Program-made: the position numbers and the translations under genes | Notes under the pieces: generated by a model | What the model saw: the letters and a program-made list of their open reading frames with translations, nothing else | What the model was told of the DNA's origin: nothing | The model's database searches: none | Part shown: positions 45,807 through 58,345 of the stretch, piece after piece | How the letters are laid out: every line of letters begins with the position of its first letter | Numbering within the stretch: position 1 is the first letter of the stretch | Assembly: GCF_028532725.1 (NCBI RefSeq) | Contig: NZ_JAQKGU010000008.1 | Span: forward strand, 1-64,000 | Direction of reading: 5' to 3' | DNA length: 64,000 bases | Source: Desulfovibrio sp. Fe33 | GTDB taxonomy: Bacteria; Desulfobacterota; Desulfovibrionia; Desulfovibrionales; Desulfovibrionaceae

Positions 45807-46128
45807 TGCGATACTCCTCTTTGAATGGAATGCGTTTCTAACCTGCCCTCCTTCTATCAAGAGTCGTGCCAAATACGTTTTTTGTCGCTATTCATGTAAA
45901 ATCGCCACTTTCCAGCGATTAAAAATAGCTCATTTTTTGCATTTTTGTCATAAAGTACATTTTTGCAGGGTGGAAAATGCATCAAAATTGTCAATTTGTA
46001 AAAAAATGTCAAACCACACAAAAATGACCGCCGGTCGCGAACTTATAATACATATAACGCTATCTCCTTGAAATCGTAACATATCTTTTTGTTGACAGAC
46101 TGGCCCCATGGGTGTAGCTCTAGAAGCC
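45807..46128. other. Divergent control region between amtB and the aromatic operon
   Basis: This AT-rich stretch holds the sigma-54 promoter of amtB and, for the plus strand, a good -10 element (TATAAT, 46044-46049) without a strong -35. A TTGACA at 46092-46097 has no good -10 and would start transcription almost at the leader ATG. No protein gene other than the leader peptide is seen. Confidence 0.5.
45856..45872 (-). promoter_or_regulatory. Sigma-54 promoter of amtB-glnB
   Basis: On the minus strand this reads TTGGCACGACTCTTGAT. It matches TTGGCACG-N4-TTGCW except for GA instead of GC at -12. Its place 50 bp before amtB and the nitrogen role of the operon support it; sigma-54 with an NtrC-like activator is the usual control of amtB. 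Confidence 0.75.
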
Positions 46129-46224
46129 ATGAAAACCTCCATCGTTACCTCCGCATACTTTTCCAACTTTTACTTTTGGTATTGGTATAGCCACGCTCGC
46201 GGGCTTGGAAGAGGCGCTGTGTAA
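46129..46224 (+). CDS. Aromatic leader peptide of the aro/trp operon
   Basis: This 31-codon frame starts MKTSIVTSA and then reads YFSNFYFWYWY: nine of eleven residues are Phe (3), Tyr (4) or Trp (2). It ends in SHARGLGRGAV with TAA. The chance of such a run is very low, and its place just before a strong terminator and the first common-pathway gene is typical of ribosome-mediated attenuation. The ribosome site is weak (AGAAG); an in-frame ATG at 46108 would add seven residues. The peptide itself probably has no function beyond being translated. Confidence 0.8.
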   Translation: MKTSIVTSAYFSNFYFWYWYSHARGLGRGAV

Positions 46225-46300
46225 CCTTTTGGTGGATCACACAACCGATAGATAACTTCTTCAAGGGCCGCGGGCGAAAGCCGGCGGCCCTTGTTTTTTT
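46204..46300 (+). terminator. Attenuator terminator of the aro/trp operon with possible antiterminator
   Basis: The terminator occupies 46262-46300: a 13-bp GC-rich stem (CAAGGGCCGC with GCGGCCCTTG outermost), GAAA loop, one mismatch, then seven T. Upstream, CTTGGAAGAGG (46204-46214) inside the leader frame can pair with CTTCTTCAAG (46256-46265), with one bulge and one G-U pair, which would consume the base of the terminator stem. Stalling at the aromatic codons (46156-46188) would leave the first segment free; a ribosome at the stop would cover it. Confidence 0.75.
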
Positions 46301-46358: not shown

Positions 46359-47156
46359 ATGCACATCGGAAAAGCCATCAGGTTGGAGCGCATCTTCAAC
46401 CGCAACACAGGCAGGACCATCATCGTCCCGATGGACCACGGCGTGACGGTCGGCCCCATCGACGGACTGGTCGACATGCGCGAGGCGGTAGGCAAGGTCG
46501 TCGACGGAGGGGCCAACGCCGTCATTGAACACAAAGGTCTCGTCCGCTGCGGCCACCGCGCCGAAGGCAAGGACATCGGCCTCATCGTCCACCTCTCCGC
46601 CTCCACATCCCTCTCCCCCTTCCCCAATGCAAAATCCCTGGTCGCATCCGTAGAGGACGCCATCCGGCTCGGCGCGGACGCCGTGTCCATCCACTGCAAC
46701 CTCGGCGACGAGACCGAAGCCGCCATGCTTAACGATTTCGGCAAAATATCCTCCGACGCATCCAACTGGGGCATCCCGCTCCTGGCCATGGTCTACGCAC
46801 GAGGCCCCAAGGTGGACAACGAATACGCCCCCGAGATCGTGGCCCACTGCGCCCGCGTGGGCACCGAACTGGGCGCGGACGTGGTCAAGGTCAACTACAC
46901 CGGCGACATCGAGTCCTTCTCCCGCGTATGCGACGCCTGCTGTGTCCCGGTAGTCATCGCGGGCGGCCCTAAACTCGACAGCACCGAGGCGTTCCTCCAA
47001 ATGGTGCACGACTCCCTGGAAGCCGGAGGCGCAGGCCTGTCCGTGGGCCGCAACGTCTTCCAGCACGACAATCCCACCCGCCTGGTGGAGGCGCTGAACA
47101 TGGTCGTCCACAACGACGAATCCGTCGAGGCCGCCCTTAACCATCTCAACGCATAG
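46359..47156 (+). CDS. 2-amino-3,7-dideoxy-D-threo-hept-6-ulosonate (ADTH) synthase
   Basis: This 265-aa class I aldolase-type enzyme performs the first step of the alternative shikimate entry, which bypasses DAHP synthase. Signatures are [17 protein letters not shown] and the Schiff-base region [11 protein letters not shown], with the [10 protein letters not shown] phosphate loop. Its partner is the next gene. The pair is known from methanogens and Desulfovibrio relatives. GGAG lies before the start. It is the first structural gene behind the attenuator. Confidence 0.93.
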
Positions 47157-47166
47157 CGAAGCAGCC

Positions 47167-48150
47167 ATGAAAAAAATCATCCTCAAGTCTGTGCCCTTCG
47201 ACAAAAACCTCGTAACCCTGGCGCTCGAATCCGGCGTGGACGCCGTCATGGTCGAAAAGGACCACGCTGAAGCGGTCAGGGCGCTCGGCCGCGTCACCGT
47301 CATCACTCCCGAGGACATGCCCGTCGTGGAACTGACTGAAAAGGCGGACGAAGACGCGGCGGTCAAGGCGATCAAGGCAGGCAAGGACGTCGTCCTCAAA
47401 AAAGGTTGGGAAATCATCCCCGTGGAAAACATCCTCGCCCAGGTGGAATCCCTGGCCCTGGAATGCGAATCCCTCGACCGCGCCCTGCTCGCCGCCGGAA
47501 TCCTCGAACGCGGCTGCGACACCATCGTGGTCCTGCCCGAAGGCGGAGCCGACCTGAAGCGGATCATCGCCGAACTCAAACTCTCCCAGGGAACCATGGA
47601 ACTGCAAACCGCCATCGTCACGGCCATCGAGCCCACCGGCATGGGACACCGAGTCTGCGTGGACACCATCTCCATGCTGAAAAAGGGACAGGGGATGCTC
47701 ATCGGCAACTCCAGCGCCTTTTCCTTCCTCGTCCATGCCGAAACCGAGTCCAATCCCTATGTGGCCGCACGCCCCTTCCGGATCAATGCGGGCGCGGTCC
47801 ACGCCTATGCCCAGATGCCCGGCGACAAGACCACCTATCTTGAGGAACTCGCGGCAGGCACGGACGTGCTCATCGTGAACGCGAACGGGACCACCTCCCT
47901 GGCCACCGTGGGCCGCGTCAAGGTCGAAGTCCGGCCCATGCTGCTCATCACCGCCGAGGTGAAGACCGGCGACAGGACCAAGACCGGCCAGGTGTTCCTG
48001 CAAAACGCAGAGACCATCCGCGTGGTTTCGGACAAAGGCGAGCCCGTGTCCGTGGTCACGCTCAAGGTCGGCGACAAGATTCTGGTCCGCACCGACGAGG
48101 CCGGACGCCACTTCGGTATGCGCATCAAGGAAGATATCAAGGAAGGCTAG
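47167..48150 (+). CDS. 3-dehydroquinate synthase II
   Basis: This 327-aa protein is the archaeal-type 3-dehydroquinate synthase, unrelated to AroB, which converts the ADTH product to 3-dehydroquinate. Family blocks visible are VTAIEPTGMGHRVCVDT, LIGNSSAFSFLVHAE and NPYVAARPFRINAGAVHAY. It follows the ADTH synthase by 10 bp. A 230-bp gap to pheA follows, in which I see no terminator. Confidence 0.94.
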   Translation: MKKIILKSVPFDKNLVTLALESGVDAVMVEKDHAEAVRALGRVTVITPEDMPVVELTEKADEDAAVKAIKAGKDVVLKKGWEIIPVENILAQVESLALECESLDRALLAAGILERGCDTIVVLPEGGADLKRIIAELKLSQGTMELQTAIVTAIEPTGMGHRVCVDTISMLKKGQGMLIGNSSAFSFLVHAETESNPYVAARPFRINAGAVHAYAQMPGDKTTYLEELAAGTDVLIVNANGTTSLATVGRVKVEVRPMLLITAEVKTGDRTKTGQVFLQNAETIRVVSDKGEPVSVVTLKVGDKILVRTDEAGRHFGMRIKEDIKEG

Positions 48151-48380
48151 GCCAGGCCCCATTTCCCTGGTTCCCCTGACGATTCGGTGAACGCGGGGAT
48201 TGAGAAAATGCGTTCGATGACGCATTATCGTAATGAGTGACACGAATCCGCGCAAAGACATGGCGATGCCGACGGCGCACGGACTCGACGAAAGCGCGAA
48301 AACACCTATTGGAAGGGTCGGAGAAAGCACCCGCCGCCCAAGGCGGTACACAAACGCCCGAAGGCGCTCCTGGAGAAGAC

Positions 48381-49484
48381 ATGGCTGACACGAAAGACCA
48401 AAACGATATTCCCGACCTCGGGGAACTGCGGGATTCCATCGACTCGCTGGACAAGCGGATCGTGGACCTGCTCAATCAGCGGGCCAGGCTGTCCCTGAGC
48501 GTCGGCCGCTACAAGGCGGCCAAGGGCGAATCCATATACAAGCCGTTCCGCGAGCAGGAAGTGATGGACAAGATCGCCAATTCCTCGCCCGGCCCGCTGC
48601 CGGACAAGCACCTGCGCACCATCTACCGCGAGATCATGAGCTCGTCGCGCCACCTCCAGCGGCCCGAACGGGTAGTTTATCTCGGCCCGGAAGGCACCTT
48701 CTCCTATTTCGCGGCGGTCGAGCATATGGGGTCGTCCGCCTCCCTGACCCCCAAGAACAACTTTGAAGAGATATTTCGGGCCGTGGCCGAAGAAGGAGCC
48801 GAGTTGGGGGTCATCCCGCTCGAAAATTCCATCGAAGGCACCGTTGGGCAGGTGGTGGACCTGTTCATGAAATACAAGGTCTACATCCAGGCCGAGGTTT
48901 TCAGCCGCATCAGCCATTGCCTCATTTCCCGGGCCGATAAGGTGGAGGATGTGGAGGTTATCTACTCGCACCCGCAACCCCTTGGCCAATGCCGGGAATG
49001 GCTCCACTCCCATCTGCGCGACGTCCCGACCATCCCCATGGAGTCCACGGCCGAAGCGGCCGAAGCTGTGGCGGGCAAAAAGGCCGCCGCCGTGATCGGA
49101 CACCGCAAGCTGGCCGACATGCACGCCATGAACATCCTGGCCGAATCCATCGAGGACTTGCCGGACAACTGGACCCGCTTTGTCATCATCGGCGCGGCCC
49201 CGTCCCAGGAGGACAAGCGCGACAAGACCTCCATCCTGTTCACCACGCCCAACCGGCCGGGCGCGCTGGCCCGCGTGCTGACCACCCTGGCCCACCAGGG
49301 CATCAACGTGACCAAGCTTGAATCCCGTCCCTTCCGGGGCGAAAAATGGAAATACGTCTTCTTCGCCGACCTGGCCTGCGATCTGGGCGGCGACCGTTAC
49401 CAGGACGTATTGGACGACATCCGCGACCAATGCCTTACACTGCGCGTGCTCGGCACCTACCCCACTCAGGAGGAACTCCAATGA
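48381..49484 (+). CDS. pheA: Bifunctional chorismate mutase / prephenate dehydratase
   Basis: This 367-aa enzyme leads to phenylalanine. Residues 13-95 form an AroQ-type mutase (RDSIDSLDKRIVDLLNQRARL). The dehydratase domain starts YLGPEGTFSYFAA and carries the TRF motif (NWTRFVII). A C-terminal ACT domain has GALARVL and ESRP, the Phe-binding determinants, so feedback inhibition by Phe is expected. The start follows GGAGA. It overlaps aroA by ATGA. Confidence 0.96.
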   Translation: MADTKDQNDIPDLGELRDSIDSLDKRIVDLLNQRARLSLSVGRYKAAKGESIYKPFREQEVMDKIANSSPGPLPDKHLRTIYREIMSSSRHLQRPERVVYLGPEGTFSYFAAVEHMGSSASLTPKNNFEEIFRAVAEEGAELGVIPLENSIEGTVGQVVDLFMKYKVYIQAEVFSRISHCLISRADKVEDVEVIYSHPQPLGQCREWLHSHLRDVPTIPMESTAEAAEAVAGKKAAAVIGHRKLADMHAMNILAESIEDLPDNWTRFVIIGAAPSQEDKRDKTSILFTTPNRPGALARVLTTLAHQGINVTKLESRPFRGEKWKYVFFADLACDLGGDRYQDVLDDIRDQCLTLRVLGTYPTQEELQ

Positions 49485-50821
49485 CCAAAGATCCGATCAT
49501 CGTCAACGCTCCGGCCAGCAAGTCCCTCTCCCACCGCACACTGATCGCCGCCACCCTGGCCAAAGGCGTGTCCCATATCAGTTCGGTCCTCGACTCCGAA
49601 GACATACACCGCACCCGCGACTGCCTCACGGCCTGCGGGGCCGTCATCGAGGAAAAGGACGGCAAGCTGGTGGTCACGGGCATGGAGGACGGCCCGAAAG
49701 GGGCCAATGCGGACGGCAAGCACAAGGATGAGACACCTCGGGAACTGTTCATGCACGAGTCCGGCACCACCTGCCGGTTGATGACCGCCGTGGCCGCCGC
49801 GGGCAAAGGCGTTTTCCGGGTTCACGGCGCGCCGCGTATGCATGAACGCCCCATGGCCGAACTGACCGACGCCCTGTCGAGCCTGGGAGCCAAATTCGAT
49901 TTCGAGGGGAAAGAGGGATTCCTTCCCTTCATCATGACCGCCGGGGGATACCGGAAGAAGAGCGTGGACATAACCCTTGAGGAAAGCAGCCAATACCTGT
50001 CCGGCCTGCTCCTGGGAGCGCCCATGGCGGACCACGAGACGACTATTTCGGTAACAGGCAAAAAGGCCGTGTCCTGGCCCTACGTGGCCCTGACCCTGCG
50101 GATCATGGAAGACTTCAAGGCCGGATTCGCCGTGGAGATCAAGGAGGACCGCGCCTGGAAGGAGGTGCCCTGGCGTTCGATCAAGGGCGTGACCCCCGGC
50201 CAGGTCCGATTCATCGTCAAGCCCACCGGCTACGAAAACACCGGCTACATGGTCGAGGGCGACTGGTCCAACGCCAGCTATTTCCTGGCCGCCGGAGCAG
50301 TCGGTTCGCGTCCGGTGCTCCTCAAGGGGTTGGCCGCCGACTCTCTCCAGGGCGACCGGGCGATCATGGATATCCTCAGCCAGATGGGCGCGTCCATCAA
50401 GGTCAATTTCGACGGCATCCTGGTGGAGCCGAGCCGGTTGCGCGGCATCCGGGTCGACATGGGCCGCTGCCCGGACCTGGTGCCCACCGTGGCCGCCGCG
50501 GCCGCCTTCGCCTCCACTCCGACGACCATTGAGAACGTGGCCCATCTCCGCCTCAAGGAGACGGACCGGCTGGCCGCCTGCGCCGCCGAACTGACGCGCG
50601 CCGGTTGCGAGGCCGAAGCCTCCGACGATTCGCTCTCCATCCGCCCGGGCCGCCCCCTTCGGGACGGTGAAGTGGAATTCAAGACCTACAACGACCACAG
50701 AATGGCCATGGCCATGGCCCTGTTCGAACTGGCCGGGGCCAAGGTCGGTTTCGACAACCCGGAATGCGTCAACAAATCCTTCCCGGGCTTCTTCGACGAG
50801 TGGAAAAAGATCGTCGGCTAA
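49481..50821 (+). CDS. aroA: 3-phosphoshikimate 1-carboxyvinyltransferase (EPSP synthase)
   Basis: This 446-aa enzyme joins phosphoenolpyruvate to shikimate 3-phosphate. The N-terminal PASKSLSHRTLIAATLA and the C-terminal LRLKETDRLAA and YNDHRMAMAMAL blocks are typical. The start overlaps the pheA stop, with AGGAGG upstream. Confidence 0.97.
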   Translation: MTKDPIIVNAPASKSLSHRTLIAATLAKGVSHISSVLDSEDIHRTRDCLTACGAVIEEKDGKLVVTGMEDGPKGANADGKHKDETPRELFMHESGTTCRLMTAVAAAGKGVFRVHGAPRMHERPMAELTDALSSLGAKFDFEGKEGFLPFIMTAGGYRKKSVDITLEESSQYLSGLLLGAPMADHETTISVTGKKAVSWPYVALTLRIMEDFKAGFAVEIKEDRAWKEVPWRSIKGVTPGQVRFIVKPTGYENTGYMVEGDWSNASYFLAAGAVGSRPVLLKGLAADSLQGDRAIMDILSQMGASIKVNFDGILVEPSRLRGIRVDMGRCPDLVPTVAAAAAFASTPTTIENVAHLRLKETDRLAACAAELTRAGCEAEASDDSLSIRPGRPLRDGEVEFKTYNDHRMAMAMALFELAGAKVGFDNPECVNKSFPGFFDEWKKIVG

Positions 50822-50844
50822 TCGCGCAAGGACCGAAATAAATC

Positions 50845-51615
50845 ATGGCAACGGAAATACACAACATCGCCGTCGTGGGCGCAAACGGGCAGATGGGCGG
50901 CCGCTTCTCGGCGGACTTCGCGGCCCTCGGCCTGAACGTCGCGCGCCTGGACCGGGAATCCTCGGACGAGGACGTGCGCGCGGCCCTCGACGGCTGCGAC
51001 CTGCTCCTGCTCAGCGTGCCCGTCACGGCCATGGACGCCGTGCTCGACCGTATGCTGCCGAGGCTTGGCCGAACGGCCATCCTCTGCGACGTAGGCTCCG
51101 TGAAGGTCATGCCCGTGAAGGCCATGACGGCCCGCTATGAAGGGCCTGTGGTGGGCACGCACCCTCTGTTCGGCCCCGTCGTTCCCGAGGGATTCGAGCC
51201 CAGGGTGGCGGTCATGCCCGGCCGCGACCGCGATGCGGACGCCGCGGCACTGGTGGCCGACCTGTTCACCCGCTGCGGCTACCACTGTTTCGCCTCCGAC
51301 CCGGAAGAACACGACCGGGCCATGGCCTACATCCAGGGCCTGAACTACACATCCACCGTGGCCTTTCTGGCCGCGGCCCGGGATGTGGAGGGCATCAGCA
51401 ATTTCGTCACCCCGTCCTTCCGGCGCAGGCTCGATGCCGCCGCGAAAATGCTGAACCAGGACATGGAGCTCTTCGAGATCATCTCGGAGGCCAACCCGTT
51501 CCTTCAGGAAGTCAGCCGCAAGTTCATGTCCTACCTCAGCCTGGCCGCCGGCGGCGATCTCGATCTGCTCGCCGACCGGGCGCAGTGGTGGTGGCGCAAC
51601 GAAAAGTCTTATTGA
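50845..51615 (+). CDS. tyrA: Prephenate dehydrogenase with a WWW C-terminus
   Basis: This 256-aa NAD(P)-dependent enzyme leads to tyrosine. The Rossmann motif VVGANGQMGGRF is followed by LCDVGSVK, the GTHPLFGP signature and EHDRAMAYIQGLNY. No chorismate mutase domain is fused; that activity is in PheA. The final residues are AQWWWRNEKSY: three consecutive TGG codons nine codons before the stop. Immediately downstream lies a terminator/antiterminator, so this tail probably doubles as a trp leader peptide. Confidence 0.94.
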   Translation: MATEIHNIAVVGANGQMGGRFSADFAALGLNVARLDRESSDEDVRAALDGCDLLLLSVPVTAMDAVLDRMLPRLGRTAILCDVGSVKVMPVKAMTARYEGPVVGTHPLFGPVVPEGFEPRVAVMPGRDRDADAAALVADLFTRCGYHCFASDPEEHDRAMAYIQGLNYTSTVAFLAAARDVEGISNFVTPSFRRRLDAAAKMLNQDMELFEIISEANPFLQEVSRKFMSYLSLAAGGDLDLLADRAQWWWRNEKSY

Positions 51616-51695
51616 TGGGGTGCGGCGTTTCGCCGGGCACACGATTACACCTGTAACCGAAGCCGCACCCCGACCAAGGGTGCGGCTTTATTTTT
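51586..51695 (+). promoter_or_regulatory. Intra-operon Trp attenuator using the tyrA tail as leader peptide
   Basis: TGG TGG TGG occupies 51586-51594 and the tyrA stop 51613-51615. Segment 1 GGGGTGCGGC (51617-51626) pairs perfectly with segment 2 GCCGCACCCC (51662-51671). Segment 2 also pairs perfectly with segment 3 GGGTGCGGC (51678-51686), extended to AAGCCGCACCC/GGGTGCGGCTT and followed by TATTTTT, a terminator. A ribosome stalled at the Trp codons leaves segment 1 free (antiterminator 1:2); a ribosome at the stop covers it (terminator 2:3). A tiny frame (MMNGT, 51705-51722) follows AAGGAG. Confidence 0.8.
51660..51695 (+). terminator. Terminator half of the tyrA-trpE attenuator
   Basis: An 11-bp perfect stem, a 7-base loop and TATTTTT lie 160 bp before trpE in the middle of a functionally continuous operon. 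An unconditional terminator here would silence the trp genes, which supports conditional use. Confidence 0.88.
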
Positions 51696-51857
51696 AAGGA
51701 GAATATGATGAACGGAACGTGAAAGAAATGGGAAAACCACAAGAAGATCAAAGGGTGGCAGGTCATACCCAGGCCATATCATTAATAGAACAGCCAAAAC
51801 CGGCACCATTGCGAGTGGAGCGCACGCTCTGCGCGCCTGAAGTGCGAAGGATACAAA

Positions 51858-53324
51858 ATGCAGAAAATAACCATCACGCAGCACGGCAAATGGATGCCTG
51901 CCGACGTGCAGACCACCATCTCCCTCTACATGGGACTGGTGGGCGACCAGCCCGGCATTCTCCTGGAATCCGCCGAGGTTGACGGGCGGCTCGGCCGCTA
52001 TTCCCTCATCGCCTTCGACTACCGCCTCATGCTCCACCCCGTGGACGGCAGGCTGGTGGTCGAGGCCTCCGACGAGCGTCTCGCGCCCCTCAAGGAGTTC
52101 GAGGGCATGGACTTCCTGGCCGGGATCAAGGAAGTCGTCAAACATCTCTCCATCGAACAGGAGGCCACCGGCACCTCCCCGGCCATCGGCCGCGACGGGC
52201 TGCCCGGACTGACGCGCGGCCTGTACGGCTATTTCGGCTACGGCGTGGCCGGGATGTTCGAACGCAAACTGAAAGATGTGTGCAGGCCCGAGGACGCCGA
52301 GGCGTGCCTGGTCCTGCCCGGCCAAATGGTCCTCTTCGACCACCTGCGCCACTCCTGCTGCTATCTCTCCCTGGACGAGGGAGCCACGCCCATGCCCGCA
52401 CCGATCCAGTGGGGCGGCGACCTGGCCGCGCCCGAGACCGGCGCGCCCGAGGTGCATCCGGGCAAGGAGGAATACATGGCCGGGGTGGCGCGGTGCAAGG
52501 AGCTCATCGCCGAGGGCGAATGCATCCAGGTGGTCCTGTCCACCCGGTTCTCGATGCCCCTGCCCGACGAGCCGTTCCGGATCTACCGCCGACTCCGCCA
52601 GGCCAACCCCTCCCCGTTCATGTTCTACATGAAATTCCCGGACTGCCCGTCCATGGGCAAGACCTGCGGCACCACCCTGCTCGGCTCCTCTCCCGAGATG
52701 ATGGTCCGCTCCGCGCGCGGCAGCCTTGAAGTGCGCCCCATCGCAGGCACCCGCTGGCGCGGAGAAACCGAGAAGGAGGACATCCGCCTGGAGCAGGAAC
52801 TCCTGTCAGACCCCAAGGAGCGGGCCGAACACGTCATGCTCGTCGACCTGGGCCGCAACGACCTGGGCCGAATATCCAAGCCCGGCACCGTGACCGTGGA
52901 AAAGTTCATGAACGTGGAAAGATTCTCCCACGTCATGCACCTGACCTCCTACGTGGAAGGCGAACTCAAGGACGGGCTCGACGGCGTGGACGTGCTCCAG
53001 GCCACCTTCCCGGCAGGAACCCTGTCCGGCGCGCCCAAGATTCGGGCCATGGAGATCATCGCCGACCTGGAACCCGAAGCGCGCGGCCCTTACGGAGGCT
53101 GCATAGGCTGGATGGGCCTGGACGACGGCGAGGTCAGTCTCGACACCGGCATCACCATCCGCTCCATGTGGATCAGGGACAACGTCTGCCACTGGCAGGC
53201 GGGCGCGGGAATCGTCTACGATTCGAACCCCGAGGCCGAATGGGTTGAATGCAACAACAAGGCCCGTGTGATTCTCGAAGTCATCACCGGCAAGGGAGGC
53301 ACCGATGTTTTTGCTGATCGATAA
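51858..53324 (+). CDS. trpE: Anthranilate synthase component I
   Basis: This 488-aa subunit converts chorismate to anthranilate with ammonia from TrpG. The Trp feedback motif LLES is at residues 35-38. The catalytic part shows RPIAGTRWRG, HVMLVDLGRNDLGRI and GTLSGAPKIRAMEII. It is the first gene behind the intra-operon attenuator. AAGGA lies upstream. It overlaps trpG by 20 bp. Confidence 0.97.
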   Translation: MQKITITQHGKWMPADVQTTISLYMGLVGDQPGILLESAEVDGRLGRYSLIAFDYRLMLHPVDGRLVVEASDERLAPLKEFEGMDFLAGIKEVVKHLSIEQEATGTSPAIGRDGLPGLTRGLYGYFGYGVAGMFERKLKDVCRPEDAEACLVLPGQMVLFDHLRHSCCYLSLDEGATPMPAPIQWGGDLAAPETGAPEVHPGKEEYMAGVARCKELIAEGECIQVVLSTRFSMPLPDEPFRIYRRLRQANPSPFMFYMKFPDCPSMGKTCGTTLLGSSPEMMVRSARGSLEVRPIAGTRWRGETEKEDIRLEQELLSDPKERAEHVMLVDLGRNDLGRISKPGTVTVEKFMNVERFSHVMHLTSYVEGELKDGLDGVDVLQATFPAGTLSGAPKIRAMEIIADLEPEARGPYGGCIGWMGLDDGEVSLDTGITIRSMWIRDNVCHWQAGAGIVYDSNPEAEWVECNNKARVILEVITGKGGTDVFADR

Positions 53325-53877
53325 TTTCGACTCCTTCACCTTCAATCTGGTGCAGGCGTTCCAGCAGCTCGGAGCCGACCCCGTGGTCATCCGCAACGAC
53401 CGGAAACGAATCCTGGAACTGGCCGAAAGCGGCGAATTGGAGCGCGTCTGCCTCTCCCCCGGGCCGAGCAACCCGGAAAACGCGGGTTTCTGCCTGGAGT
53501 TCCTGGCGCGGCTGCCCAAGGAAACGCCGGTCCTCGGCGTCTGCCTGGGCCACCAGACCCTGGGCCATTTCGCGGGCGCACCCGTGGAACGCGCCGGGCG
53601 GATCATGCACGGCAAGACCTCCGAGGTTTTCCACGAAGGCCGAAGCGTATTCGAAGGACTGCCTTCCCCGTTCACGGTCTGCCGCTACCACTCCCTCATC
53701 GTCCCGGCCGAGAAGGCCGCCGACAAGATCGAGGTCACGGCCCGCACCGAACAAGGCGAGGTCATGGGATTGCAGTACAAGGACCGGCCGTGGCACGGCG
53801 TGCAGTTCCATCCGGAATCCATCCTCACCCCCGAAGGCCCCAAGCTCCTTGCAAACTTCCTCAAAATAGAAGGATAG
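53305..53877 (+). CDS. trpG: Anthranilate synthase component II (glutamine amidotransferase)
   Basis: This 190-aa class I amidotransferase supplies ammonia to TrpE. The nucleophile block GVCLGHQTLG and the catalytic pair in GVQFHPES are intact. It begins LLIDNFDSFTFNLVQ, the normal start. It is not fused to TrpD. Overlap with trpE suggests coupled translation. Confidence 0.97.
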   Translation: MFLLIDNFDSFTFNLVQAFQQLGADPVVIRNDRKRILELAESGELERVCLSPGPSNPENAGFCLEFLARLPKETPVLGVCLGHQTLGHFAGAPVERAGRIMHGKTSEVFHEGRSVFEGLPSPFTVCRYHSLIVPAEKAADKIEVTARTEQGEVMGLQYKDRPWHGVQFHPESILTPEGPKLLANFLKIEG

Positions 53878-53881
53878 AATC

Positions 53882-54889
53882 ATGACCGTAGCCGAAATAC
53901 TTGAAATACTGGCCCAGAAAAAAGCCCTGACCGACGACCAGGCGGACTTCATGTTCGCGGAACTGATGACCGGCAACCTGACCGAAGCCCAGGCCGGGGC
54001 ATTCCTCATGGGGTTGCGCGCCAAGGGCGAAGACTCCACGGACCTGGCCGCGGGCGTGCGCGCCTGCCTGGCCCACGCCCGGACCATTCCCGGCGTCAAG
54101 GCCACGCCCGAGAACCCCATCTTCGACACCGTAGGGACCGGCGGCGACGGCCAGCACTCCTTCAACAACTCCACGGCGGTGTCCCTGTTCCTGGCGGACA
54201 TGGGCTGCACCGTGGCCAAGCACGGCAACCGCGCCCTGTCGTCCTCCTGCGGCTCAGCCGACGCCCTCGAAGGACTGGGCATCCCGCTGGAACAGACCCC
54301 GGAGGAAGCGGCGGAGGGACTCGCGAAATACAACTTCGCCTTCCTGTTCGCCCCGGCCTACCACCCGGCCTTCAAGCACATCATGCCCGTGCGCAAACAG
54401 CTCGGCATCCGCACCCTGTTCAACTTCATGGGACCGCTGCTCAACCCGATCCGCCCGTCGCACCAGCTCATAGGCGTGGGAGATCCCGAGCGGCTGTTCC
54501 TCATGGGCGAGACCCTGCTCCTGACCGGCGTGCGCCGCGCCCTCATCTTCGCGGGCGCGGGCGGCTTCGACGAGCTGACCACCTGGGGCGTAAACCGGGG
54601 CTACATCATCGACGACGGCCGCATGGACAAGGCGGTGGTCGATCCCGGAACCCTGGGCTTCCCGCGCCACTCTCCCGACGACGTGCGCGTTACCGGCAAA
54701 GAGGACGCCGTTGCCAAGCTCAGAGCCATCCTGGCGGGCAAGGGGCCGGAGGCCATGATGGACATGGTGGCCCTCAATCTGGCAGGGTGCCTGAATCTGC
54801 TGGACAAGGGCACCATGGCCGAATGCGCCGATATCGCCCGCGACGTGGTACATGCCGGACTGACAAAAGGAATCCCCTATGCTGAATAA
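53882..54889 (+). CDS. trpD: Anthranilate phosphoribosyltransferase
   Basis: This 335-aa enzyme transfers phosphoribosyl to anthranilate. DTVGTGGDGQHSFNNST is the PRPP-binding loop and KHGNRALSSSCGSAD the second signature. It starts four bases after trpG and overlaps trpC by 11 bp. Confidence 0.97.
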   Translation: MTVAEILEILAQKKALTDDQADFMFAELMTGNLTEAQAGAFLMGLRAKGEDSTDLAAGVRACLAHARTIPGVKATPENPIFDTVGTGGDGQHSFNNSTAVSLFLADMGCTVAKHGNRALSSSCGSADALEGLGIPLEQTPEEAAEGLAKYNFAFLFAPAYHPAFKHIMPVRKQLGIRTLFNFMGPLLNPIRPSHQLIGVGDPERLFLMGETLLLTGVRRALIFAGAGGFDELTTWGVNRGYIIDDGRMDKAVVDPGTLGFPRHSPDDVRVTGKEDAVAKLRAILAGKGPEAMMDMVALNLAGCLNLLDKGTMAECADIARDVVHAGLTKGIPYAE

Positions 54890-55649
54890 ATTCCGTGAAG
54901 CCAAGCGGCTCGAAATCGAGTCGCTGCACAAGGACTTCGCGGCGGGACGCATTCCCGCCGCCTTCCGGGGCGAACGCCCCTCCTTCATCGACGCCATCCG
55001 GGCCAAGGGGCCGGGCGCAATCATCGCCGAGTTCAAACCGGCCAGCCCCAGCCGGGGCGTATTGCGACCGGACGCCAACCCCCTGGACTTCGCCGACGCC
55101 TATGCGAAAAACGGCGCGGCCGCCATCTCCGTGCTGACCGAACACAAGTACTTCAAGGGCACCCCGGACTTCCTCTTCATGATGAACGGATCGGGACTGC
55201 CGCTCCTGCGCAAGGACTTCATATTCGACCCGCTCCAGGTGGCCATGACCGCGTCCAGCCCGGCCTCGGCCGTGCTGCTCATCGCCCGCATGTGCGACGA
55301 CGCCGCCCATCTGAAGCAGCTCGTCGACATCGCCAGGATGCCGGGCCTGACCCCTGTGGTCGAGATATTCGACCAGGCGGACCTGGACCGCGCCCGCGAG
55401 GCCGGTGCCGACGTCATCCAGGTCAACAACCGCGACCTGGACACCCTGCAAACCTCCCTGGACCAGGGCCGCGCCTTCATCCGGCAGAAGCGCGACGGCG
55501 AGCTGTGGATCTGCGCCAGCGGCGTATCCACCCGCGCCCAGGTGGAGGAAATGGCGGCGCTCGGCTTCGACGCCATACTCGTCGGCACCTCCCTGATGGA
55601 AGCCGAAGACCCCGGCGCCATGCTGGCGGAACTGACGGGAGCGCGATAA
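54879..55649 (+). CDS. trpC: Indole-3-glycerol phosphate synthase
   Basis: This 256-aa TIM barrel closes the indole ring. IIAEFKPASPSRG holds the substrate Lys region, then LRKDFIFDPLQV, VNNRDLDTLQT and ICASGVSTRAQV. It is monofunctional, with the isomerase on the next gene, trpF. Confidence 0.97.
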   Translation: MLNKFREAKRLEIESLHKDFAAGRIPAAFRGERPSFIDAIRAKGPGAIIAEFKPASPSRGVLRPDANPLDFADAYAKNGAAAISVLTEHKYFKGTPDFLFMMNGSGLPLLRKDFIFDPLQVAMTASSPASAVLLIARMCDDAAHLKQLVDIARMPGLTPVVEIFDQADLDRAREAGADVIQVNNRDLDTLQTSLDQGRAFIRQKRDGELWICASGVSTRAQVEEMAALGFDAILVGTSLMEAEDPGAMLAELTGAR

Positions 55650-55650
55650 A

Positions 55651-56277
55651 ATGGCACGCCCCCTGGTCAAGGTCTGCGGCATGACCCGCATGGAAGACGT
55701 GGAACTCTGCGTGAAGCTCGGCGTGGACCTGCTCGGCTTCATCTTCCACGAAAAAAGCCCGCGCAACGCGGACCCGGATTTCGTGGCTTCGGTCAAGACC
55801 GGCAAGGTCTCCAAGGTGGGCGTCTTCGTCGACCAGACCGCCGACGAGGTCATCGAGACCATGGACCGCTGCGGGCTTCATGCGGCGCAACTGCACGGAG
55901 GCCAGGATTCGATCTTCTGTTGGAAGATCGGACCCGACCGGGTCATCCGGGCCTTCTGGCCCGCCGCGTACTCATCGCCCCACGCCCTGGAGCGCGACCT
56001 CGACGCCTATACCGAGGTCTGCGGACATTTCCTTCTGGACGCGGGCGCGAAAGGCCAGGGCGGGACAGGCCGAACCATTGATCTCGCCGCTTTGCAACAT
56101 ATTGAAATACAAACGCCTTGGTTCCTCGCTGGGGGACTTGGACCGGACACACTCAGGGCCGCCCTGGCCGTGAATCCCCCGGGCCTGGACTTCAACTCCG
56201 GCGTGGAAAGCGCACCGGGAATCAAGGACGAAACCAAACTGCGGGAAGTCTTTCGGATTCTCGCGGAATTGGAATAA
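55651..56277 (+). CDS. trpF: Phosphoribosylanthranilate isomerase
   Basis: This 208-aa TIM barrel starts VKVCGMTRMEDVELCV, with the catalytic Cys in KVCG. The catalytic Asp is in HFLLDAGAKGQGGTGRTID and the phosphate loop at LAGGLGPDTL. One base separates it from trpC. Confidence 0.97.
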   Translation: MARPLVKVCGMTRMEDVELCVKLGVDLLGFIFHEKSPRNADPDFVASVKTGKVSKVGVFVDQTADEVIETMDRCGLHAAQLHGGQDSIFCWKIGPDRVIRAFWPAAYSSPHALERDLDAYTEVCGHFLLDAGAKGQGGTGRTIDLAALQHIEIQTPWFLAGGLGPDTLRAALAVNPPGLDFNSGVESAPGIKDETKLREVFRILAELE

Positions 56278-56286
56278 GGAATCATC

Positions 56287-57450
56287 ATGAGAAAAGGATA
56301 CTTCGGCGACTTCGGCGGGCAGTTCATCCCCGAACTGCTCATGCCGCCGCTCATAGAACTCGAAGAGGCCATGGAGACCATCCTCCCGAGCGAAGCGTTT
56401 CAAACCCGCTTCGCGGCCATGCTCAAGGAAAACGTGGGCCGTCCCTCGGCCATCACCTACTGCCCGAACCTGTCAAAGGACCTCGGCCTGGACCTCTGGC
56501 TCAAGCGCGAGGACCTCAACCATTCGGGCGCGCACAAGATCAACAACACCCTGGGCCAGGGACTGCTGGCCAAGATGATGGGCAAGAAGGTGCTCCTCGC
56601 CGAAACCGGCGCTGGAATGCACGGCGTGGCGACCACCGTGGCCGCGGCCATGCTCGACATGAAGGCGGTCATCTACATGGGGGCCACCGATGTGATCCGC
56701 CAGGCTCCCAACGTCAACCGGATGCGCCTCATGGGCGCGGAAATCATCGCCGTGGAATCGGGCACCAAGACCCTCAAGGACGCCATCAACGAGGCGCTCA
56801 GACGCTGGCTGGCCGACCAGGAGACCACCCACTACTGCTTCGGCACCGCCGCCGGACCGCACCCCTTCCCCACCCTGGTGCGCGAATTCCAGCAGATCAT
56901 CTCCAAAGAAGCGCGCGAACAGTTCATGGCCCGCAACCAGGGCAAACTGCCCGATGTGGTCGTGGCCTGCGTGGGCGGCGGCTCCAACGCCATCGGCATG
57001 TTCCACAACTTCGTCCCCGACGAGTCCGTCAAGCTCGTCGGCGTGGAGGCCGCAGGCACCGGCGAGCCCGGCTGCTACAGCTCCGCGCCCATCGACCACG
57101 GCACGGAAGGCGTGCTGCACGGCATGAAGACCAAGCTCTTGCAGACCCCGGAAGGCCAAATCGAGCCCTCCCACTCCGTGGCCCCCGGCCTGGACTATCC
57201 CGGCGTCGGCCCCGAACACGCCTATCTCGACGCCATCGGCCGCGCCGACTACACGACCATCAACGACGCCCAGGCAATCAATGCCTTCAAGGTCCTGTCC
57301 CGGCGCGAAGGCATCATCCCGGCCCTGGAATCCTCCCACGCCGTGGCCTACGCCATCGAAAACAAGGATAAGCTCCAGGGCAAGTCGGTGCTCGTCTGCC
57401 TCTCCGGGCGGGGCGACAAGGATTTGGGGATACTCGACGAGATCATGTGA
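56287..57450 (+). CDS. trpB: Tryptophan synthase beta chain
   Basis: This 387-aa PLP enzyme condenses indole with serine. The PLP lysine is in KREDLNHSGAHKINNTLGQ and the phosphate loop in CVGGGSNAIGMF. Length and motifs are of the TrpB1 type, which pairs with TrpA. AAGGA lies upstream. Confidence 0.98.
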   Translation: MRKGYFGDFGGQFIPELLMPPLIELEEAMETILPSEAFQTRFAAMLKENVGRPSAITYCPNLSKDLGLDLWLKREDLNHSGAHKINNTLGQGLLAKMMGKKVLLAETGAGMHGVATTVAAAMLDMKAVIYMGATDVIRQAPNVNRMRLMGAEIIAVESGTKTLKDAINEALRRWLADQETTHYCFGTAAGPHPFPTLVREFQQIISKEAREQFMARNQGKLPDVVVACVGGGSNAIGMFHNFVPDESVKLVGVEAAGTGEPGCYSSAPIDHGTEGVLHGMKTKLLQTPEGQIEPSHSVAPGLDYPGVGPEHAYLDAIGRADYTTINDAQAINAFKVLSRREGIIPALESSHAVAYAIENKDKLQGKSVLVCLSGRGDKDLGILDEIM

Positions 57451-57583
57451 GGAACGCTTCCGGCGGCGCTTGATCGACGAACCGTCCCCGACGCCCCAAG
57501 GACCTCCCGAAAAAGGTCCTTGAGAATCTCCGAAACTTTTTGTGCGCGCCTCGCGCAGGAAGCGCACGGACAAGGTAAATGAT

Positions 57584-58345
57584 ATGAATGCAATGCAGAG
57601 AAAAATAGAAGAGGCCAGGGGCAAGGGAAAGGTGGGGTTGATCCCCTTTCTGCCCGCAGGGTTCCCGGACCGCGAGCGGTTCTGGAAGGAGCTTGAGGAA
57701 CTGGACGCCGCAGGCGCGTCCGTCATCGAGATAGGTATGCCCTTTTCCGACCCGGTGGCCGACGGCCCGGTCGTGGAAAAGGCGTCCCTCCGATGTCTCG
57801 CGGACGGCGTCAACCTGGCCTGGATTCTCACCGAGCTGCGGAAGCGCAAGGGGCAGTTCAACGCTGCCCTGCTGCTCATGGGCTACCTCAATCCTGTCTA
57901 CCAGTACGGTCTGGACCGATTTGCCGAGGACTGCGAAGCGGCGGGCGTATCCGGCCTGATTATCGCGGACATGCCCCATGAGGAATCCCGATTCGTCAGG
58001 GACGCCGTCGAGCCGCACGGCATAGCCCTGGTCCCCCTGATCGGCCTGAACACCTCGAAGGAACGCATGAAGCTCTACGCCGACGGGGCGCAGGGATTCT
58101 GCTACTTCGTGTCGGTGCTCGGCACCACAGGACAGCGCGACGCCCTGTCCGCGCGCATCAAGGAAAAACTCGCCGAGGCCAGGGAAGTCTTCGACATCCC
58201 CATCGCGCTCGGTTTCGGCATCAAGCACCCGGACCAGCTCACGCAGTTCGACGGACTCCTCGATGCCGCCGTGTTCGGCTCCGCCCTCATCTCGCACATA
58301 GAATCCGGCCGCTCCAGCGACTCCTTTATGGAGCCGTGGAAGTAG
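57584..58345 (+). CDS. trpA: Tryptophan synthase alpha chain
   Basis: This 253-aa TIM barrel cleaves indole glycerol phosphate. The family blocks GLIPFLPAGFPD, IEIGMPFSDPVADGPV with the catalytic Glu and Asp region, and ALGFGIKHPDQL are present. It follows trpB after a 133-bp gap containing a hairpin (CAAGGACCT with AGGTCCTTG) without a U-run. It is the last gene of the operon. Confidence 0.96.
   Translation: MNAMQRKIEEARGKGKVGLIPFLPAGFPDRERFWKELEELDAAGASVIEIGMPFSDPVADGPVVEKASLRCLADGVNLAWILTELRKRKGQFNAALLLMGYLNPVYQYGLDRFAEDCEAAGVSGLIIADMPHEESRFVRDAVEPHGIALVPLIGLNTSKERMKLYADGAQGFCYFVSVLGTTGQRDALSARIKEKLAEAREVFDIPIALGFGIKHPDQLTQFDGLLDAAVFGSALISHIESGRSSDSFMEPWK

Follow-up and report, generated by a model that had tools for sequence, protein, structure and literature searches.

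The aromatic amino acid operon of Desulfovibrio sp. Fe33 is preceded by what is, with a probability that we put at about 0.9, a ribosome-mediated transcription attenuator reading Phe-, Tyr- and Trp-tRNA at once. Sequence comparison brought together a leader frame, a sensor block of aromatic codons with a sharp edge, two competing RNA helices and a match between sensor composition and target gene. The window in which the element was found is a stretch of 64,000 nucleotides (contig NZ_JAQKGU010000008.1, positions 1 to 64,000, forward strand), and all the coordinates below refer to this stretch unless a contig is named.

The first gene of the operon encodes ADTH synthase (2-amino-3,7-dideoxy-D-threo-hept-6-ulosonate synthase; 46359-47156, + strand; TIGR01949, E 4.7e-120). 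It is followed at 47167-58345, on the same strand, by 3-dehydroquinate synthase II, pheA, aroA, a tyrA-like gene, trpE, trpG, trpD, trpC, trpF, trpB and trpA, where the trpF call comes from gene order and translation rather than from a domain scan. The close spacing suggests that the genes from ADTH synthase to trpA are co-transcribed, and by its gene content the operon covers all three aromatic amino acids. An earlier note on this DNA had argued that a leader mixing Phe, Tyr and Trp suits an operon making all three, and relatives bear this out, since 68 of 75 leaders of pan-aromatic operons carry F, Y and W (66 of 73 by another count).

The leader peptide frame (MKTSIVTSAYFSNFYFWYWYSHARGLGRGAV; 46129-46224, + strand) runs over 31 codons from the ATG at 46129 to a TAA stop at 46222-46224 and is kept in relatives. 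Its sensor block, YFSNFYFWYWY (46156-46188, + strand), has 11 codons, among them 3 for Phe, 4 for Tyr and 2 for Trp, and these 9 aromatics in 11 residues form the densest aromatic run of the window in all six frames. The Phe codons lie at 46159-46176. In first-order Markov sequences of window length, the aromatic peak was 6 in 18 of 20 sequences and 7 in the other 2, and an AT-rich local Markov model (300 runs of 2 kb each) gave a peak of 8 in 5 runs and of 9 in none. We regard a constitutive terminator preceded by a chance aromatic frame, with no regulation, as having an almost negligible probability, because the aromatic density is above the Markov expectation, the frame is conserved across families and the terminator faces competition from a further helix that covaries, as described below.

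Upstream of this frame, we predicted a promoter at 46092-46120 (+ strand), composed of a -35 box TTGACA (46092-46097), a 17-nt spacer and a -10-like TAGCTC (46115-46120), the latter being a weak -10 match. The transcript would probably start at about 46127-46129. The reading frame is likewise open from an ATG at 46108, and the earlier note had placed the start of the 31-codon frame with YFSNFYFWYWY in that region. The frame itself stands, at 46129-46224, whereas the start region does not: the ATG at 46108 sits inside the predicted promoter, between the -35 and the -10 boxes, and is therefore probably untranscribed. Most of the related loci possess a TTGACA-like box 36-38 nt 5' of the leader ATG, a -10-like element about 8 nt 5' of it, with several weak assignments, and no Shine-Dalgarno sequence. 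A second group, mainly of the Desulfovibrio type, does have a Shine-Dalgarno sequence, and the box stands at 51-54 nt in most of its loci. In total, 60 loci showed a TTGACA-like box at 42 nt or less without a Shine-Dalgarno sequence, 13 a Shine-Dalgarno sequence without a near box, 1 both and 10 neither. The near box together with the lack of a Shine-Dalgarno sequence predicts leaderless leader frames for the first group, and the window frame, judged by its promoter spacing and the same lack, is probably one of them.

Between the leader frame and the first gene, an intrinsic terminator was found at 46262-46300 (+ strand), with a stem (46262-46275/46280-46293), a GAAA loop and seven T at 46294-46300. 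The 14 stem positions make 13 pairs and one conserved G-G mismatch (46272/46283), and the element ends 58 bp before ADTH synthase (46359), in agreement with the 13-bp terminator with seven T noted at that distance earlier. A terminator stem and T-run occupy the same place in nearly all the relatives' loci, and in an alignment of 61 sequences 8 pairs of the stem showed changes on both sides. RNA folding, which the earlier note had suggested, revealed that leader codons pair with the 5' arm of this terminator. The 5' strand of the resulting antiterminator (46195-46214, + strand) lies within the leader frame and covaries with the terminator arm; it comprises a core (46195-46204) and an extension (46208-46214). 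The 3' strand (46256-46275, + strand) comprises the matching extension (46256-46262) and core (46266-46275), this core being part of the terminator 5' arm. The core pairing of the window holds one G-G mismatch (46203/46267). An antiterminator had previously been proposed at 46204-46214 with 46256-46265; this pairing is possible and its distal part is conserved, but the conserved core at 46195-46204/46266-46275 had been overlooked. We rejected it as the sole antiterminator, since conservation covers the distal part only and the core lies upstream.

To assess the competing helix, we examined its covariation in the same 61 aligned sequences, leaving aside an alignment with a misplaced row (L002). 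Core pair 4, which joins C46198 and G46272 in the window, was C-G in 27, U-A in 27, U-G in 5, A-U in 2 (L050 and L052) and unpaired in none, the core having been found by best complementarity and being to that extent biased toward pairing. The leader codon at this pair is CGC (Arg), TGC (Cys) or AGC (Ser), and in 50 of the 61 sequences the terminator leaves the corresponding column unpaired. A position always paired with the leader and mostly unpaired in the terminator suggests that the base of the arm is maintained for its match to the leader codon, not to the terminator. Both sides had changed in 7 sequences at core pair 6, and in the extension helix all seven pairs were changed on both sides, with 78% of cells paired. 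The antiterminator covariation score was 0.314, compared with a shuffled mean of 0.220 (sd 0.009) and with 0.171 or less for slid registers, and exceeded all 500 shuffles; these tests count related sequences many times, against which stands the occurrence of three Watson-Crick pair types, one transversion included, across different genera. Separately, a possible small hairpin at the leader stop codon (46219-46245; TGTGTAACC..GGTGGATCACACA) is kept in part of the genus, and could serve as a pause site for the polymerase or the ribosome.

From these features we infer a mechanism that involves ribosome stalling, polymerase timing, a leaderless start and a separate response to each amino acid. Transcription would start at, or a couple of bases from, the AUG at 46129, as the promoter spacing suggests, and a ribosome would load on the leaderless frame. 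When the supply of Phe-, Tyr- or Trp-tRNA falls short, the ribosome would stall within the codons at 46156-46188 and leave 46195-46214 free to pair with 46256-46275, terminator 5' arm included; with this antiterminator formed, RNA polymerase would continue into the operon. When all three tRNAs are charged, the ribosome would pass over 46195-46214 and block the antiterminator, the hairpin at 46262-46293 would form and transcription would end at 46294-46300. Scarcity of any one aromatic tRNA would be expected to relieve termination. A ribosome that has reached the stop codon (46222) presumably covers back only to about 46205, if we assume a footprint of general size, so that the core at 46195-46204 could be free and termination may need either the timing of ribosome passage or a 1:2 hairpin. 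Folding predicts such a hairpin, between the sensor codons and 46205-46213, in 29 of 29 sequences of the genus.

We then considered the conservation of the leader in ADTH synthase loci from 30 whole genomes and 80 named contigs, with partly overlapping strains, in which each upstream region was searched. In Desulfovibrionales and in part of the Desulfobacterales, nearly every ADTH synthase gene with DHQ synthase II and pheA behind it is preceded by an aromatic-rich leader; Desulfoluna possesses an additional F/W leader on a lone ADTH synthase gene. As the earlier note had also proposed, the aromatic run was compared across relatives, and it proved to be conserved: with the antiterminator as the reference point of the alignment, 73 relatives have 73-95% aromatic residues at codons -9 to -3 and 1% at codons -2 and -1. 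In most loci, the last aromatic codon begins 9 nt before the antiterminator does. This sharp aromatic edge at codon -2 is as expected from a ribosome ruler. Among relatives, F, Y and W interchange at every sensor position. An arrest peptide, in which a specific nascent chain rather than codon starvation stalls the ribosome, as for TnaC and the Erm leaders, would account for a conserved, aromatic-rich leader with a conserved C-terminal ARGLG or ACGLG motif. This explanation appears very improbable, given that the free swapping of aromatics leaves no conserved arrest residues in the sensor, that leader composition tracks the target gene (see below) and that the C-terminal motif is accounted for by antiterminator pairing, its individual codons covarying with the terminator arm.

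A covariance model (R1) of the attenuator matched 145 of 149 genomes of the class, in 36 of 38 genera, and in the phylum 42 of 247 genomes, many weakly, some of the matches being echoes of the terminator on the opposite strand. No Rfam family was returned at gathering score for the window region and eight loci with other members. Two further strong copies were present in the genome holding the window (C3:109271 and C4:194729), of which Pseudodesulfovibrio are near relatives. The first is a Phe-only leader, MQTRHNRFGFFFFFSFRFFRSACGFEVCV (L112; G000:C3:109271-109357, - strand), before two genes, for a small membrane protein and for an SSF sodium:solute symporter, and it suggests that the symporter is a Phe transporter; 10 of 10 close orthologues have a Phe leader, as do several more distant orthologues, and two symporter loci carry a Tyr-rich one. 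The second copy is the Phe-only leader MHNITARFFFFFSFIRNACGLGVR (L113/L192; G000:C4:194729-194812, - strand), before a lone ADTH synthase paralogue. An initial ORF scan had classed this C4-type gene as having no leader, and it was the covariance model and targeted inspection that revealed the short Phe-only frame. Phe-dominated leaders, some with one or two Tyr, precede C4-type genes in 21 of the 21 Pseudodesulfovibrio-group genomes sampled, which suggests a Phe-assigned isozyme. By the model and targeted inspection, no aromatic leader was detected before ADTH synthase genes of a third type, the C13-type in the genome of the window (L188-L191, L064, L072, L073, L075, L079, L082).

Other sensor codons were observed before other targets. 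A Phe-rich mini-leader, MRNFLFARFFQFTNSL (L293, upstream of G000:C3:331556), precedes a PaaK phenylacetate-CoA ligase and went unreported by the covariance model. Such PaaK leaders occur in some relatives, at roughly a quarter of the loci examined, and suggest salvage of phenylacetate into Phe. Tyr-only leaders (e.g., SSYYYYGYACARGPAGWRTI) stand before another clade of lone ADTH synthases (L159, L161, L162, L258, L262). Six genomes from four families, none of them the family of the window, have Trp-rich leaders (e.g., AWWWQWWRVSCGLAG) before a DctP TRAP solute-binding protein (L261, L268, L317, L321, L326, L345), and no Trp leader was present in any of the Desulfovibrionaceae DctP homologues examined. 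In one genome (G114), whose trpE is placed separately, this gene has a Trp leader and the leader of the ADTH-DHQS-pheA-aroA operon is mixed. Trp leaders also precede a TrpB-like gene (L263) and the trpE of more distant phylum members; beyond the order, the trpE leaders may have arisen independently. Weak model matches at C10:98636 and C1:96690 in the genome of the window, and elsewhere at L267, L272-L274, L276-L278, L282 and L284, had no convincing aromatic leader and were discarded as chance terminator matches. One model match outside this set (L285) is an Fe-alcohol dehydrogenase locus. Overall, it is likely that one chassis is used across Desulfovibrionales with its sensor codons exchanged, so that some ADTH isozymes answer to Phe, some to Tyr and some to all three amino acids, and uptake and salvage genes are tied to single aromatics.

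We quantified this match on the densest 12 residues of each leader. Pan-aromatic operon leaders contained F 0.43, Y 0.39 and W 0.18, and symporter leaders F 0.93; the values for PaaK (F 0.95), DctP (W 0.68) and trpE/TrpB-like leaders (W 0.78) come from PaaK, DctP and trpE loci picked for a visible leader and thus describe leader appearance, not leader frequency. The within-class variance of composition was 7.4, compared with 29.4 when shuffled, and 0 of 2000 shuffles were as low, in a test whose sets lack phylogenetic independence and whose lone ADTH class, divided by its own leader type, is circular. As an independent check, the ADTH synthase proteins placed the Tyr-type in one clade (100/98) and the Phe-type in at least two places.

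Codon usage in the leaders was also distinct. For Phe, the leaders of the genus use TTT 95 times and TTC 7 times, compared with 21 TTT and 212 TTC in 16 genes of the window; for Tyr, they use 59 TAT and 39 TAC, compared with 28 TAT and 98 TAC. The TTT bias could reflect slower wobble reading or the avoidance of RNA structure. This bears on a further explanation, that the attenuator is real yet responds to one or two amino acids, for example the Tyr and Trp nearest the antiterminator, the other aromatic codons being U-rich and keeping the RNA unstructured. Phe codons that are almost all TTT also lower structure, Trp is commonest at codon -4 and Tyr or Phe at the two neighbouring codons, -5 and -3, and in theory mixed codons reduce the sensitivity to each amino acid (PMC1183508). 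We nevertheless consider such a restricted response unlikely, because all three amino acids are kept in the 68 of 75 leaders despite variable single positions and because the single-target siblings carry single amino acids, which suggests that sensor composition is under selection. A sensor reading all three aromatic tRNAs remains the reading that we prefer.

Leaders reading several amino acids are known for branched-chain operons, and the ilvGMEDA and thr attenuators read more than one amino acid. The element described here resembles the attenuators of the trp, his, pheA, thr, leu, ilvGMEDA and ilvBN operons of E. coli and Salmonella (listed in PMC1183508) in its regulatory-codon leader, competing hairpins and cognate operon, and differs from them in that the Desulfovibrio leader would read three aromatics, holds the antiterminator strand inside the frame and is probably leaderless. 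In Corynebacterium glutamicum, a putative Phe-Tyr-Phe leader precedes aroF, for the first common-pathway enzyme (PMC4046766); it involves two amino acids, with no Trp reported, a DAHP synthase and another phylum. The trpL (rnTrpL) RNA of Sinorhizobium meliloti begins at the AUG and thus encodes a leaderless leader peptide (PMC7298713), but it serves trpE(G) only, and its start is established where that in Desulfovibrio is predicted. A 2005 paper lists a computer-predicted attenuator for aroA'>aroB'>aroQ-pheA>aroF>tyrA>[trp operon] of D. vulgaris (PMC1173090, Table 7, from Merino's website). This is the same supraoperon in a relative, given there without a leader peptide, aromatic codons or a regulon. 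Our literature search, which mostly excluded subscription journals, returned no description of the attenuator element in Desulfovibrio, no leader reading all three aromatics and no set of attenuators with swapped sensors.

If this reading is correct, the leader would act in nature as an OR-gate with three amino acids as its inputs. Mixed and single-amino-acid siblings in the same genomes would provide a series relating the number, mix, order and position of codons to sensitivity, and the effects of codons on attenuation sensitivity have been modelled (PMC1183508). The leader code would also predict the substrate of the SSF symporter as Phe (or as Tyr, in the case of Tyr-rich leaders) and that of the DctP TRAP system as Trp or a Trp precursor; such predictions can be tested, and they concern families of transporters for which substrates are difficult to guess. 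Finally, these results suggest that an organism entering the aromatic pathway via ADTH synthase could use attenuation to apportion this entry step to the different end products.
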